Virus record (IMG/VR): IMGVR_UViG_3300042894_006225
Location: 1 to 50,483 of that record
Reading direction: 5' to 3' (one strand)
DNA from: a virus
DNA length: 50,483 nucleotides
The translations under genes were made by a program, and so were the position numbers. The notes beneath the pieces are model-generated. The model made no database searches and was not told where the DNA came from. It saw only the letters and a program-made list of their open reading frames with translations. Shown piece by piece: positions 654 through 4,737 of this stretch; position 1 is the first letter of the stretch; each line of letters starts with the position of its first letter.

Positions 654-725
654 GCCCGGTCTGACGGATTCAGGCGTTGGTCTTCTAAGCCGACTAGGAG
701 TGTTCGACTCTCTCACCGGGCGCCA
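654..725 (+). tRNA. tRNA-Arg (anticodon UCU)
   Basis: The acceptor arms GCCCGGT and ACCGGGC pair perfectly over 7 bp, followed by G and an encoded CCA. The anticodon arm is TTGGT, loop CTTCTAA, GCCGA, giving anticodon TCT, which reads AGA. The T arm is GAGTG, TTCGACT, CTCTC with one T-T mismatch. The D arm is short (CTGA with TCAG over a 5-base loop), so the molecule has 69 bases before CCA. AGA is a favoured arginine codon in this AT-rich genome, which fits a translation-boosting role. It is probably cotranscribed from P1. Confidence 0.85.
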
Positions 726-2389: not shown

Positions 2390-2592
2390 AAAAGATAGAT
2401 ATACAAACTTTTCTAGAAATGCTTCAAGAAGATTTGGTTGGGTTTGAAGAAAGTGTTAACGAAGGAACTTTTCAAAATAGAAATTCACACGAATGGTTTA
2501 AATTACTAAGCGATTGGGTGGATTATGGTTTTTCCCGTCGTGCAACGGCAGAGTGGGATGACTACACCGACGACACCGACTCTGACGAATGA
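2386..2592 (+). CDS. small acidic hypothetical protein
   Basis: A 68-residue acidic protein ending in a run of aspartates (DDYTDDTDSDE). The first part is helical (TFLEMLQEDLVGFEESV). It is coupled to the preceding gene by an ATGA overlap and has no strong ribosome site of its own. No family is recognised. Highly acidic small phage proteins often mimic DNA or bind basic host proteins, but there is no direct evidence for that here. A strong promoter begins 7 bases after its stop. Confidence 0.7.
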   Translation: MKKIDIQTFLEMLQEDLVGFEESVNEGTFQNRNSHEWFKLLSDWVDYGFSRRATAEWDDYTDDTDSDE

Positions 2593-2599
2593 TCTGCCC

Positions 2600-2628
2600 T
2601 TGACAAGTTAGAAGCCCTGTGCTAAGAT
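2600..2628 (+). promoter_or_regulatory. sigma70-type promoter P2 with extended -10
   Basis: TTGACA at 2600-2605, 17 bases, then TAAGAT at 2623-2628, preceded by TGC, which forms an extended -10 (TGN). The start site expected near 2635 lies about 3 bases before tRNA-Leu, so the tRNA is read almost from its first base. Confidence 0.85.
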
Positions 2629-2637
2629 GGGGCACAC

Positions 2638-2721
2638 GCCGAAGTGATGGAACTGGTAGACGTGTCGGTTTCAAAAACCGGTTCCCGCAAGGGAGTGGGG
2701 GTTCGATTCCCCCCTTCGGCA
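2638..2721 (+). tRNA. tRNA-Leu (anticodon CAA)
   Basis: Class II tRNA of 84 bases. The acceptor arm GCCGAAG/CTTCGGC is perfect, and the discriminator A fits leucine. The D arm has the Leu-like TGGAACTGGTAGAC. The anticodon arm is TCGGT, loop TTCAAAA, ACCGG, giving CAA, which reads UUG. The long variable arm forms TCCC-GCAA-GGGA. The T arm is GGGGG, TTCGATT, CCCCC. CCA is not encoded. It has its own promoter P2. Confidence 0.93.
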
Positions 2722-2731
2722 CTAAATAAAA

Positions 2732-2974
2732 ATGATTACAAAAAATACTATTCTACAAATTAATAGATTTATTAAATCAATGCCTGATGTTGAGAAAAGC
2801 ATCAAAAGTATTGTTATTAATTATCTAAAACTTTTTAATGAAAATGATCAGCTCAAGCAAGAAATTTCTGTTCTTACAAAATCAAATGAAGAACTCTTGA
2901 CAGACTGCGAAGATCGTGGTAAGATGATCGAAGAGCTTGAAAGAGAAATAGAACAGCTAACGCTAGTTCATTGA
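2732..2974 (+). CDS. small coiled-coil protein
   Basis: An 80-residue protein. After a short N-terminal helix, residues about 35-76 form a clear heptad pattern (NENDQLKQEISVLTKSNEELL, then IEELEREIEQL) expected to make a coiled coil, so it is probably a dimer or oligomer. The start lacks a clear ribosome site, a weakness of this call; it lies 11 bases after tRNA-Leu and may rely on P2. A second strong promoter (P3) lies inside its coding sequence at 2897-2925. No function can be assigned. Confidence 0.65.
   Translation: MITKNTILQINRFIKSMPDVEKSIKSIVINYLKLFNENDQLKQEISVLTKSNEELLTDCEDRGKMIEELEREIEQLTLVH
2897..2925 (+). promoter_or_regulatory. sigma70-type promoter P3 with extended -10, inside a gene
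   Basis: TTGACA at 2897-2902, 17 bases, TAAGAT at 2920-2925, with TGG in front of the -10. It matches P2 in both boxes and spacing although it lies within the coiled-coil gene. Its expected start near 2932 is about 50 bases before the tRNA remnant at 2983, so it probably served the original tRNA group and now also reads the HNH gene and the tRNA at 3681. Confidence 0.75.
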
Positions 2975-2982
2975 ATATTTTT

Positions 2983-3002
2983 GCCCTAATGGTGGAACGG
3001 TA
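2983..3002 (+). pseudogene. 5' remnant of a Leu-type tRNA
   Basis: The 20 bases GCCCTAATGGTGGAACGGTA align with the first 21 bases of the intact tRNA-Leu at 2638 with about 16 identities, including the D-loop TGGAAC and GGTA. The similarity stops abruptly at GGTA, and no matching anticodon arm, T arm or TTAGGGC acceptor strand follows. The sequence then passes into a late promoter and the HNH gene, so this looks like a tRNA broken by the endonuclease insertion. The short length leaves some doubt. Confidence 0.55.
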
Positions 3003-3008
3003 TAAATA
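3001..3008 (+). promoter_or_regulatory. T4-type late promoter before the HNH gene
   Basis: TATAAATA at 3001-3008 equals the T4 late-promoter consensus -10 used by gp55-bound RNA polymerase. A gp55-like protein is encoded at 15956-16723. Transcription from it would start near 3014 and give a short leader carrying the hairpin at 3022-3065. It is the only exact, correctly oriented match I noticed before a gene in this window. Confidence 0.5.
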
Positions 3009-3021
3009 CTTTTTTTGTTAA

Positions 3022-3065
3022 ATAAAGGTTTACATACTATATATTGTTGGAGCGTAAACCTTTAT
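3022..3065 (+). promoter_or_regulatory. hairpin burying the HNH start codon
   Basis: ATAAAGGTTTAC (3022-3033) is a perfect 12-base complement of GTAAACCTTTAT (3054-3065), whose last two bases are the AT of the HNH ATG. The 20-base loop holds the TTGGAG ribosome site (3048-3052). Early transcripts from P3 would carry the hairpin and be poorly translated. This resembles the hairpin control known for the T4 endonuclease I-TevI. Confidence 0.6.
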
Positions 3066-3690
3066 GAAAAAAAAGAAAATAAACAAATATTCGTTAGAAG
3101 AAATTAAAAATATAGTTGAAAATAGTCAAAGTGCCTCCGAGGCTTGTAGAAAAATGGGGATGGCTGATAAATCCGGAAACGGTACAAGATTAAGAAAAGA
3201 TTTAAAAGATTTGAATATTGATTTTTCTCATTGGACTGGGCAATTATGGTCAAAAGGAAAAACAATTTTGACTGATGAGCGAGTTTCAAAGAAGAGAAAA
3301 TTAGAAGAAATGTTTGTAGAAAATAGCGAAGTTTCTCGTAGTCACATTAGAAGCTTAATATTAAAAAATAACTTATTAGAATATAAATGTAATACATGTT
3401 GTATGTCTCCAATTTGGAATAATACAAAGCTAGCATTTCACATAGATCACATAAATGGAATTAGAAACGATCATAGATTAGAAAATTTAAGATGGTTATG
3501 TCCTAACTGTCATTCACAAACAGAAACATATTGTGGGAAAAAAAATACAGGCAGAACTAAAATTTGTGATCAAGATTTGATAGATTCATACAATAAGCAT
3601 AAAAAATGTGATAAAGCATTAAAACAATTAGGACTAGCAGGTTCTGCAAATGTTAACAGATTAAAAAAATTGCTAAATAAGGGCGCGTAG
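3064..3690 (+). CDS. HNH homing endonuclease
   Basis: A 208-residue free-standing HNH endonuclease. The core lies at about 106-152: a structural zinc site from C109/C112 and C146/C149, the catalytic FHIDHINGIRNDHRLENL segment (H126, D128, H129, N141) and a closing H150. Flanking helix-turn-helix-like segments at about 10-50 and 170-205 (QSASEACRKMGM; CDKALKQLGLAG) probably read DNA. It would cut a phage genome lacking the element and spread by repair. It is more AT-rich than its surroundings and sits between a tRNA remnant and an intact tRNA; its last 10 bases form the first 10 of that tRNA. Expression is probably late (see 3001-3065). Confidence 0.9.
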   Translation: MKKKKINKYSLEEIKNIVENSQSASEACRKMGMADKSGNGTRLRKDLKDLNIDFSHWTGQLWSKGKTILTDERVSKKRKLEEMFVENSEVSRSHIRSLILKNNLLEYKCNTCCMSPIWNNTKLAFHIDHINGIRNDHRLENLRWLCPNCHSQTETYCGKKNTGRTKICDQDLIDSYNKHKKCDKALKQLGLAGSANVNRLKKLLNKGA

Positions 3691-3759
3691 TCCAATTGGT
3701 CAGGAGACAGTTGACTTAAAATCAATACAGTGTGGGTTCGAATCCCACCGCGCCCACCA
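3681..3759 (+). tRNA. tRNA with UAA anticodon (Leu by code), short variable arm
   Basis: The acceptor GGGCGCG/CGCGCCC is perfect, with discriminator A and encoded CCA. The anticodon arm is GTTGA, loop CTTAAAA, TCAAT, giving 5'-UAA-3', which reads UUA leucine codons. The T arm GTGGG, TTCGAAT, CCCAC is perfect. The D arm pairs GTC with GAC around a large loop with TTGG, as in leucine tRNAs. The variable region is only about 5 bases, whereas bacterial tRNA-Leu has a long arm. The first 10 bases double as the end of the HNH gene. Confidence 0.85.
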
Positions 3760-3804
3760 GAGTTTAAACTTTCTCTAAAAAAGTTATTTACTAAGGAAAA
3801 CAAA

Positions 3805-4050
3805 ATGTCACTCAATCGCGCACTAACCTATCTTAAGTCCGAAATCCGTTCACGCGGTCGTGAGAATGGTGTAGTATCAGCTGCAGATGTTTCTAATGTA
3901 ATGCGCCTTCATTTTGAAGGATCAGAACGTGGAGGATTTGTAACAAAAGCTTTTCGAGATCTAATTGTTGAAGGCTTTCTTCGTCGAACTGAACGAACTG
4001 AAATTAATCAGAACACTCGCCATCAAGTAACTGTTTATCGAGTTCGCTGA
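3805..4050 (+). CDS. small basic, winged-helix-like protein
   Basis: An 81-residue basic protein. The ATG at 3805 is chosen because AAGGA (3794-3798) lies just before it; an upstream start at 3730 would run through the tRNA. The order helix (ALTYLKSEIRSRG), SAADVSNVMR, FVTKAFRDLIVEGFLRR, and a beta pair (TRHQVTVYRVR) fits a winged helix-turn-helix. It may be a small DNA-binding regulator, but this is inferred from pattern only. A terminator-like hairpin follows 27 bases after its stop. Confidence 0.75.
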   Translation: MSLNRALTYLKSEIRSRGRENGVVSAADVSNVMRLHFEGSERGGFVTKAFRDLIVEGFLRRTERTEINQNTRHQVTVYRVR

Positions 4051-4076
4051 TTCAGATAACAAAATCTAATATTACT

Positions 4077-4105
4077 GAACCCGGTTAAATGCCGGGTTCC
4101 TTTTT
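4077..4105 (+). terminator. rho-independent terminator-like hairpin
   Basis: GAACCCGG (4077-4084) and CCGGGTTC (4092-4099) form a perfect 8 bp GC-rich stem with a 7-base loop, followed by CTTTTT (4100-4105). The last T is also the first base of tRNA-Gln, so the hairpin either ends the upstream message or defines the tRNA's 5' edge. Confidence 0.8.
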
Positions 4106-4178
4106 GGGGAATCGTCTAACGGCAGGACAACGGATTTTGATTTCGTTTATCTAGGTTCAAATCCTAGTTCCCCAACCA
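4105..4178 (+). tRNA. tRNA-Gln (anticodon UUG)
   Basis: The acceptor TGGGGAA/TTCCCCA is perfect over 7 bp, then discriminator A and encoded CCA. The D arm is GTCT...GGAC. The anticodon arm is ACGGA, loop TTTTGAT, TTCGT, giving anticodon TTG, which reads CAA. The T arm CTAGG, TTCAAAT, CCTAG is perfect. CAA is heavily used in the structural genes downstream, matching a codon-compensation role. No separate promoter was found between the terminator hairpin and the tRNA, so expression may depend on readthrough. Confidence 0.92.
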
Positions 4179-4191
4179 TATGAGGTTAAAT

Positions 4192-4737
4192 ATGTCTGCG
4201 ACTTTTAGGAACGAAACTCGTCGAGAACGCTATGATAATAAAAAACAAACTTCAAACAAGCTACCAATTGAAGTTTGCACTGTTAACTTTAAAGAAGAAG
4301 TTAATGTAGCTTTTGTTTTGCGTAGTGCAGCTTGTTTTGGAGCAGCTGCAGTAAATGTAATAGGTTCAGTGCCAAATCGTAAAATACTATCTACCCGTTC
4401 TGGCACTTTGCAAGATTATATTCAGATTAATCAATTTAGTAATCCAAATGAATTTATACAATATTGTAAACAAAATCTTATTAAGATTATTAGTGCAGAA
4501 TTGGATCCAGAAGCTCTTTCAATACATCAGTATAATTTTGCAGATGTTTTAAAAGACTACAAGAAAATTTGTATTGTGGTTGGTCACGAACAAACTGGAA
4601 TCCCAGTAGAAGTTCTGCAGAATAGTTCTAAAGTTTTTATTGATATGCCAGGAATAGGGCACTGTCTCAATACAAGTCAGGCTTGTAATATTTTCTTATA
4701 TGAAGCCACCAAACAAATTCTCAGTCTTGGCAGGTAA
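4192..4737 (+). CDS. SpoU/TrmH-type RNA 2'-O-methyltransferase
   Basis: A 181-residue SPOUT-fold methyltransferase with all three SpoU motifs. Motif 1 at about 38-58 is NVAFVLRSAACFGAAAVNVIG, whose arginine is the usual catalytic residue. Motif 2 at about 129-138 is VVGHEQTGIP, and motif 3 at about 152-170 is MPGIGHCLNTSQA. Such enzymes transfer a methyl group from S-adenosylmethionine to a ribose 2'-OH in tRNA or rRNA. The ATG at 4192 follows GAGG (4182-4185); a start at 4180 lacks a site. It begins 13 bases after tRNA-Gln, so the phage tRNAs are attractive substrates. It converges on the protease gene with a 1-base gap. Confidence 0.88.
   Translation: MSATFRNETRRERYDNKKQTSNKLPIEVCTVNFKEEVNVAFVLRSAACFGAAAVNVIGSVPNRKILSTRSGTLQDYIQINQFSNPNEFIQYCKQNLIKIISAELDPEALSIHQYNFADVLKDYKKICIVVGHEQTGIPVEVLQNSSKVFIDMPGIGHCLNTSQACNIFLYEATKQILSLGR

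Follow-up and report, generated by a model that had tools for sequence, protein, structure and literature searches.

Homing endonucleases usually spare the gene that hosts them, being encoded within introns or inteins or between genes, and in the case of the phage endonuclease SegF the donor's linked gene 56 allele resists cutting. SegF itself is free-standing and targets the neighbouring gene 56 (PMC2988022); in this instance of intronless homing with localized exclusion, described for T4 versus T2, gene 56 is left whole and one homologous allele is swapped for another. SegB of T4 and T6 is encoded by a free-standing gene in a phage tRNA cluster, promotes the inheritance or amplification of tRNA segments, and is preceded by a hairpin that sequesters its ribosome-binding site (PMC2988022, PMC13096335). 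It is a GIY-YIG enzyme, encoded between tRNAs, with an intergenic target and no tRNA isotype preference. Group I introns in the anticodon loops of tRNA-Leu genes are accompanied by HNH proteins of the family that we consider here and have the same tRNA as their target. Lastly, engineered Cleave-and-Rescue and home-and-rescue drives link a nuclease to a recoded, presumably uncuttable copy of the gene that it attacks (PMC7951863, PMC7968924).

We describe a phage locus that shares features with each of these systems and departs from each of them. Unlike at the SegB locus, an HNH gene here breaks a tRNA-Leu gene and carries a substitute with the same anticodon. In contrast to SegF, which also acts on a neighbouring gene, the target is truncated, and the substitute comes from another sequence family and sometimes from another tRNA class. 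There is no intron in the window, unlike in the intron-bearing tRNA-Leu genes, and a spare tRNA, not splicing, would preserve function. Compared with the engineered drives, the element is natural, phage-borne, and protein-guided, its rescue is a tRNA gene, and we infer both its cutting and the resistance of its rescue. The locus is best read as intronless homing of the SegB/SegF type, laid out like a natural cleave-and-rescue system. In the open literature, we found no description of a tRNA-breaking endonuclease that brings along a substitute with the same anticodon; with respect to subscription journals, this negative is weak evidence.

The window, i.e., the whole stretch of DNA that was analysed, is a 50.5-kb linear IMG/VR contig from a phage with a contractile tail (myovirus-like), and it encodes a PhoH-like protein and a baseplate wedge subunit. 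Apart from short HNH and tRNA patches, no phage record was found to match it closely. Relatives, given below as L numbers, were found via the PhoH and SpoU genes and show ~67-78% nucleotide identity across the locus. The locus has the following features:

2638..2722, + strand: intact class II tRNA-Leu(CAA) (ARAGORN, Rfam), syntenic in L002-L004 and L006
2732..2974, + strand: 80-aa ORF, the left synteny anchor, which precedes tRNA-Leu(UAA) in HNH-free relatives
2983..3002, + strand: 5' stub of a class II tRNA-Leu(UAA), comprising the acceptor strand and the start of the D-arm; an intact orthologue is in the same place in L002, L003, and L004
3010..3077, + strand: hairpin with arms at 3010-3033 and 3054-3077, in which both the GGAG-containing leader and the HNH start codon are paired
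3064..3690, + strand: HNH endonuclease of 208 aa, phrog_10822 (ORF and profile match)
3681..3759, + strand: intact tRNA-Leu(UAA), class I-shaped, 79 nt, with a 5-nt variable loop (ARAGORN, Rfam), overlapping the HNH stop
3753..3759, + strand: CCCACCA junction, the apparent site of a tRNA-Tyr deletion (sequence comparison with L002-L006 and L090)
3811..4050, + strand: 79-aa ORF, MSLNRALTYLKSEIRSR..., the right synteny anchor (ORF list; synteny with relatives)

A sequence-only reading of this DNA had placed a tRNA fragment at 2983-3002, followed by an HNH gene, and these coordinates hold: GCCCTAATGGTGGAACGGTA is at 2983-3002 and the HNH ORF at 3064-3690. Its observation that the final codons of the HNH gene contain the start of an intact tRNA (3681-3759; Rfam tRNA score of 63.8 bits) holds as well. 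The fragment does match a tRNA, but the tRNA at 2638, which had been taken as the reference, is only a paralogue that is identical at ~16 of 21 positions over the stub. The true counterpart of the fragment is an intact 87-nt class II tRNA-Leu(UAA) that occupies the syntenic position in relatives lacking the HNH gene, 3' of the same 80-aa ORF (3531-3617 in L002 and L003; 3551-3637 in L004). In an alignment, the tRNA-Leu(UAA) of L002-L004 (GCTCTGATGGTGGAACAGGTAGAC...) begins where the window fragment begins. We also ran the check that had been proposed, a comparison with endonuclease-free relatives, and L002-L004 have an intact tRNA-Leu(UAA) exactly where GCCCTAATGG begins. Hence, 2983-3002 is the broken 5' end of this orthologous gene. 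The match had been said to stop at 3002, but its end is not that sharp: GGTATAAATAC, extending to ~3009, still resembles the D-arm GGTAGACAC, and the tRNA remnant in the window is 20-27 nt long. The orthologous position of the stub and the excess of tRNA fragments in the flanks of this HNH family (see below) place it beyond chance. A perfect match to the T4-type late promoter core, TATAAATA, lies at 3001-3008, where the stub degenerates and just 5' of the hairpin. The window contains 9 copies of this motif where 6.9 would be expected; it is therefore not enriched, possibly occurs here by chance, and was given no weight.

That the arrival of an HNH gene broke one tRNA is thus supported, whereas the tRNA that it abuts is not the mere neighbour that it had been taken for: it serves the same codon and replaces the broken tRNA. 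The tRNA at 3681 has the anticodon UAA of the broken tRNA, but it has a 5-nt variable loop, and its D- and anticodon arms differ. Old and new tRNAs of the window group have the anticodon-loop core GACTTAAAATC in common, so resistance to cutting would have to lie in the arms. Across 28 long ORFs with 1272 leucine codons, UUA is the commonest of these codons (456), and given this usage the substitute tRNA-Leu(UAA) probably matters to the phage. Between the same two anchors, we found three alleles: the old tRNA (L002-L004); the stub, HNH gene, and new tRNA (window); and the new tRNA alone (L006, L013, and L014, which are probably one virus population). In this last allele, the new tRNA replaces the class II gene, with neither stub nor HNH gene upstream. 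A second site, 3' of the SpoU gene, has the old tRNA in L009 and L010, tRNA fragments followed by an HNH gene and the new tRNA in L089, and the new tRNA alone in L008. The HNH protein of L089 is 73% identical to that of the window, and L090 has an HNH gene with the same new tRNA, its left side being lost at the contig end. Upstream of the L089 HNH gene lie two tandem tRNA-like 5' fragments (3870-3960), suggestive of two successive invasions or a partial duplication.

Similar allele series were present in GenBank phages. At an Ounavirinae site with high flank identity, between tRNA-Ser(UGA) and tRNA-Lys(CUU), Sf13 and SUSP2 have an intact tRNA-Leu(UAG) (GGGAGATTGACGG...; GGGAGATTGACGGTAATTGG...); mistaenkt, Michonne, and ECML-1 have the stub GGGAGATTGAC, an HNH gene, and then a different tRNA-Leu(UAG) (GCACCTATAGCCCAATTGG...); and Sf17 and radambza carry this second tRNA-Leu(UAG) alone. 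By short junction queries, the old allele is present in ~151 records, the cassette in ~10, and the new tRNA alone in ~81; these counts are rough and include duplicates. A 9-bp repeat, GATTTAATG, brackets the stub and the HNH gene, so a clean loss of the nuclease would be possible. Enterococcus Schiekvirus phages, again with high flank identity, keep a class II tRNA-Leu(UAG) in GVEsP-1 and EFGrNG, whereas EFDG1 has exactly the first 35 nt of this gene (to the base preceding the anticodon), then an HNH gene and a class I tRNA-Leu(UAG). In EFGrKN, the stub is longer and the HNH gene is truncated and decayed, and Bop has the class I tRNA-Leu(UAG) alone. The old and new tRNA-Leu(UAG) of these phages have their acceptor and T-arm in common.

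Two further contigs extend the pattern. L174 has a class I tRNA-Leu(UAA) that is split at the anticodon loop, its 5' and 3' halves enclosing an HNH gene and an intact class II tRNA-Leu(UAA); joined minus a 3-nt overlap, the halves give a tRNA-Leu(UAA), and the HNH frame contains a stop. A search for an empty-site relative of L174 recovered only the same contig. In L133, the 5' half of a tRNA-Gln(UUG) is followed by another intact tRNA-Gln(UUG) and an HNH gene; a tRNA-Leu origin of this stub was ruled out by the relatives L206 and L207, which identify it as tRNA-Gln(UUG). Members of the L133 group also have an HNH gene and a class I tRNA-Leu(CAA) (L206, L207, and L211) in place of a class II tRNA-Leu(CAA) (L204 and L212), in this case with no stub. 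Linkage of an HNH gene to a tRNA that shares the anticodon of the broken gene but diverges in sequence is seen in the window group, L089, Ounavirinae, Schiekvirus, L174, and L133, and the class changes from II to I in most cases and from I to II in L174. Stub ends vary by case (11, ~20-27, 35, and at least 57 nt); they do not point to a single fixed cut-and-insert site, and they show that the joints were not made by one precise reaction. Most cases lack the 3' part of the old tRNA, and the junctions thus reflect insertion together with deletion.

To survey the phrog_10822 family, we used a profile search that yielded 80 HNH loci, or 74 after duplicate removal, ~30-45% identical to the window protein. 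A tRNA lies within -60 to +100 nt of the HNH gene at 55 of the 74 loci, 15 tRNAs overlap an HNH stop, and a 3'-adjacent tRNA was found at 42% of HNH loci, the figure for random positions drawn from these loci being 11%. Among these loci, gathered with a query alignment that included members already known beside tRNA-Leu, tRNA-Leu accounts for 30/74 HNH-adjacent tRNAs but 35/321 elsewhere (p=1.6e-8), and tRNA-Gln for 18/74 versus 20/321 (p=1.9e-5). Partial tRNAs are present in 22 of 148 HNH flanks compared to 32 of 870 control windows from the same loci (p=1.1e-6), remnants thus also occurring away from HNH genes (4% of control windows). At a threshold of >=30 bits, 14 five-prime flanks contain a tRNA fragment versus 0.1 in shuffles, and many of the tRNA breaks fall at positions 33-38, in the anticodon loop; several of these breaks are group I introns that interrupt a tRNA-Leu next to the HNH gene (L111, L125, L165, and L160). 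The earlier suggestion that tRNA genes are the homing site of such HNH genes draws support from the Ounavirinae and Schiekvirus series and from the isotype enrichment across the 74 loci. The best reading of the glutamine bias and of L133 is that some family members may also target tRNA-Gln.

The window HNH protein matches the phrog_10822 profile over residues 5-184 (E=6e-47), and its Zn/HNH residues (C109, C112, H129, N141, C146, C149, and H150), invariant in 16 members, are intact. HNH families alone matched this protein, with no GIY-YIG domain. In the predicted structure (pLDDT 82, pTM 0.44), helical N- and C-terminal domains surround the HNH core, and these helical ends may be DNA-binding-like. 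Among solved structures (PDB), no sequence relative of the whole protein was found, and Foldseek returned weak matches only, confined to the HNH core. The gene is outside any intron or intein: there is no group I intron, the ORF has its own start and leader, and HNH-minus relatives have an uninterrupted site (L002-L004, Sf13/SUSP2, and GVEsP-1/EFGrNG). A tRNA-targeting integrative element was considered and rejected, HNH being the sole ORF between stub and tRNA, the stub and tRNA sequences differing, and no direct repeat linking them. The hairpin at 3010-3077 (83% complementary arms, -19.2 kcal/mol, z -4.9) covers the leader and the start codon, and upstream hairpins with z<-2 precede 20/75 HNH family genes versus 3/75 control windows. 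In T4 endonuclease genes, such hairpins keep the ribosome-binding site masked until late in infection (PMC2988022), and by analogy with these homing endonucleases the window hairpin is a probable translational brake.

We suggest that the locus is probably a free-standing homing element that consists of an HNH gene joined 3' to a replacement tRNA, and that it targets tRNA-Leu while supplying a synonymous, presumably uncuttable tRNA. The HNH enzyme would recognise the tRNA-Leu gene (the D-arm to anticodon-arm region) in a co-infecting phage and break it, after which repair would copy the cassette in, destroying the old tRNA-Leu and leaving a 5' stub. The joints could be explained by a cut in or near the tRNA, then trimming and recombination, the right joint lying at the 3' end of the tRNA or past it. 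The cassette would provide a tRNA with the same anticodon but another sequence, and we propose that because of this different sequence the new tRNA is not recut. The phage would thereby keep its decoding capacity while the endonuclease spreads in mixed infections, and the endonuclease might later decay or be deleted, with the substitute tRNA remaining. The allele series, the same-anticodon rule, the two directions of class change, and the decaying HNH genes fit a mechanism in which HNH targets tRNA-Leu, and the coexistence of intact, broken-and-replaced, and replaced-only alleles in related phages looks like a natural selfish element that cuts a gene and brings a substitute. Here, the host gene is broken and the cost is paid by a spare with the same job, the layout that synthetic biologists devised for cleave-and-rescue drives. 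Should the enzyme step prove right, these cassettes would be a natural example of cleave-and-rescue in lab-tractable phages and would account for odd phage tRNA-Leu genes and for the fast turnover of phage tRNA arrays. A broader claim, that of a widespread natural cleave-and-rescue drive on phage tRNA-Leu (and tRNA-Gln) whose repeated sweeps replaced long-variable-arm tRNA-Leu by class I-shaped tRNA-Leu, is tentative, and we put it at slightly under an even chance.

Passive insertion could also produce a stub, an HNH gene, and a second tRNA, if an ancestor had the old and new tRNA-Leu in tandem, an HNH gene inserted between them, a deletion clipped the old tRNA, and HNH-free phages lost one of the two. 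Such arrays are fluid, remnants occur without HNH genes, and phage HNH genes often mark recombination boundaries (PMC10448857), but no HNH-free phage with tandem old and new tRNAs was seen at these sites. Background same-anticodon neighbours at these loci are rare (13/332 consecutive pairs, and 0/48 if the first is tRNA-Leu), so the repeated same-anticodon replacement is not background. The coincidence would have to recur in at least four phage groups, and in L174 the old-tRNA halves lie on both sides of the HNH gene and new tRNA. On balance, we regard passive insertion as unlikely.

A group I intron relic is less probable still. The stub would then be a 5' exon, the ribozyme and 3' exon having been lost and the intron's HNH gene left behind, and HNH relatives are indeed found next to or within tRNA-Leu genes interrupted by introns (RF00028 in L111, L125, L165, and L160). 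Split tRNAs are also present in L120, L178, and L211, and several breaks are at the anticodon loop, the position of those introns. However, window 2500-4300 has no RF00028 match, even at E<=1, and no 3' exon; the 11-nt and ~20-27-nt stubs end short of the intron site; HNH-free relatives carry uninterrupted tRNAs at three sites; and the same-anticodon substitute and substitute-only alleles are left unexplained. Under selection by tRNA-cutting defences, the substitute would be favoured for evading a host tRNA nuclease, and the HNH gene would be a hitch-hiker or, like SegB with tRNA-Tyr, an amplifier. Such selection is compatible with the homing cassette, yet as the main cause it seems very improbable. 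By amplifying tRNA-Tyr, SegB overcomes Septu, which cleaves this tRNA in its variable loop (PMC13096335), and most substitutes here are without a long variable arm, but the direction is reversed in L174 (class II substitute), broken stubs and a tight HNH overlap are not predicted, and no tRNA-Leu-specific nuclease is implicated here.

Several other features of these tRNA arrays were observed. A tRNA-Tyr(GUA) lies 3' of tRNA-Leu in L002-L006 and L090 and is absent from the window (3753-3800); CCCACCA at the junction is common to both tRNA 3' ends, and the loss thus looks like a deletion between tRNA ends. ARAGORN calls a tRNA-Arg(UCU) at window 654-725, below the Rfam threshold, and L006 and L013 have a 77-nt tRNA-Arg(UCU) close to the corresponding position. 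In L002 (3531-4083) and L004 (3551-4103), a PD-(D/E)XK endonuclease-like ORF (PF11645, E=8e-28) occupies the gap that separates tRNA-Leu(UAA) from tRNA-Tyr, and the stop of this ORF overlaps tRNA-Tyr in L002-L004. In L006 (3466-4089), the same gap holds a second phrog_10822 HNH gene, i.e., different nucleases at one spot. Relatives of the class I tRNA are nearly absent from plasmids (2 records), and class I-shaped tRNA-Leu with a short variable loop occurs in many unrelated phages (of Enterococcus, Lactobacillus, Pseudomonas, Streptomyces, and Vibrio, and cyanophages). The anticodon loop of tRNA-Leu is interrupted by a group I intron in L111 (2179-2364), L125 (2937-3134), L165 (2189-2380), and L160 (2197-2383), and in each of them the HNH gene lies immediately beyond the intron, which resembles collaborative homing. 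Finally, tRNAs in L150 (2271-2400) and L120 (362-489) have ~50-nt inserts at the anticodon loop; the L150 insert is unlike a group I intron and has an acceptor-like stem and a T-arm-like GGTTCAAATCC.
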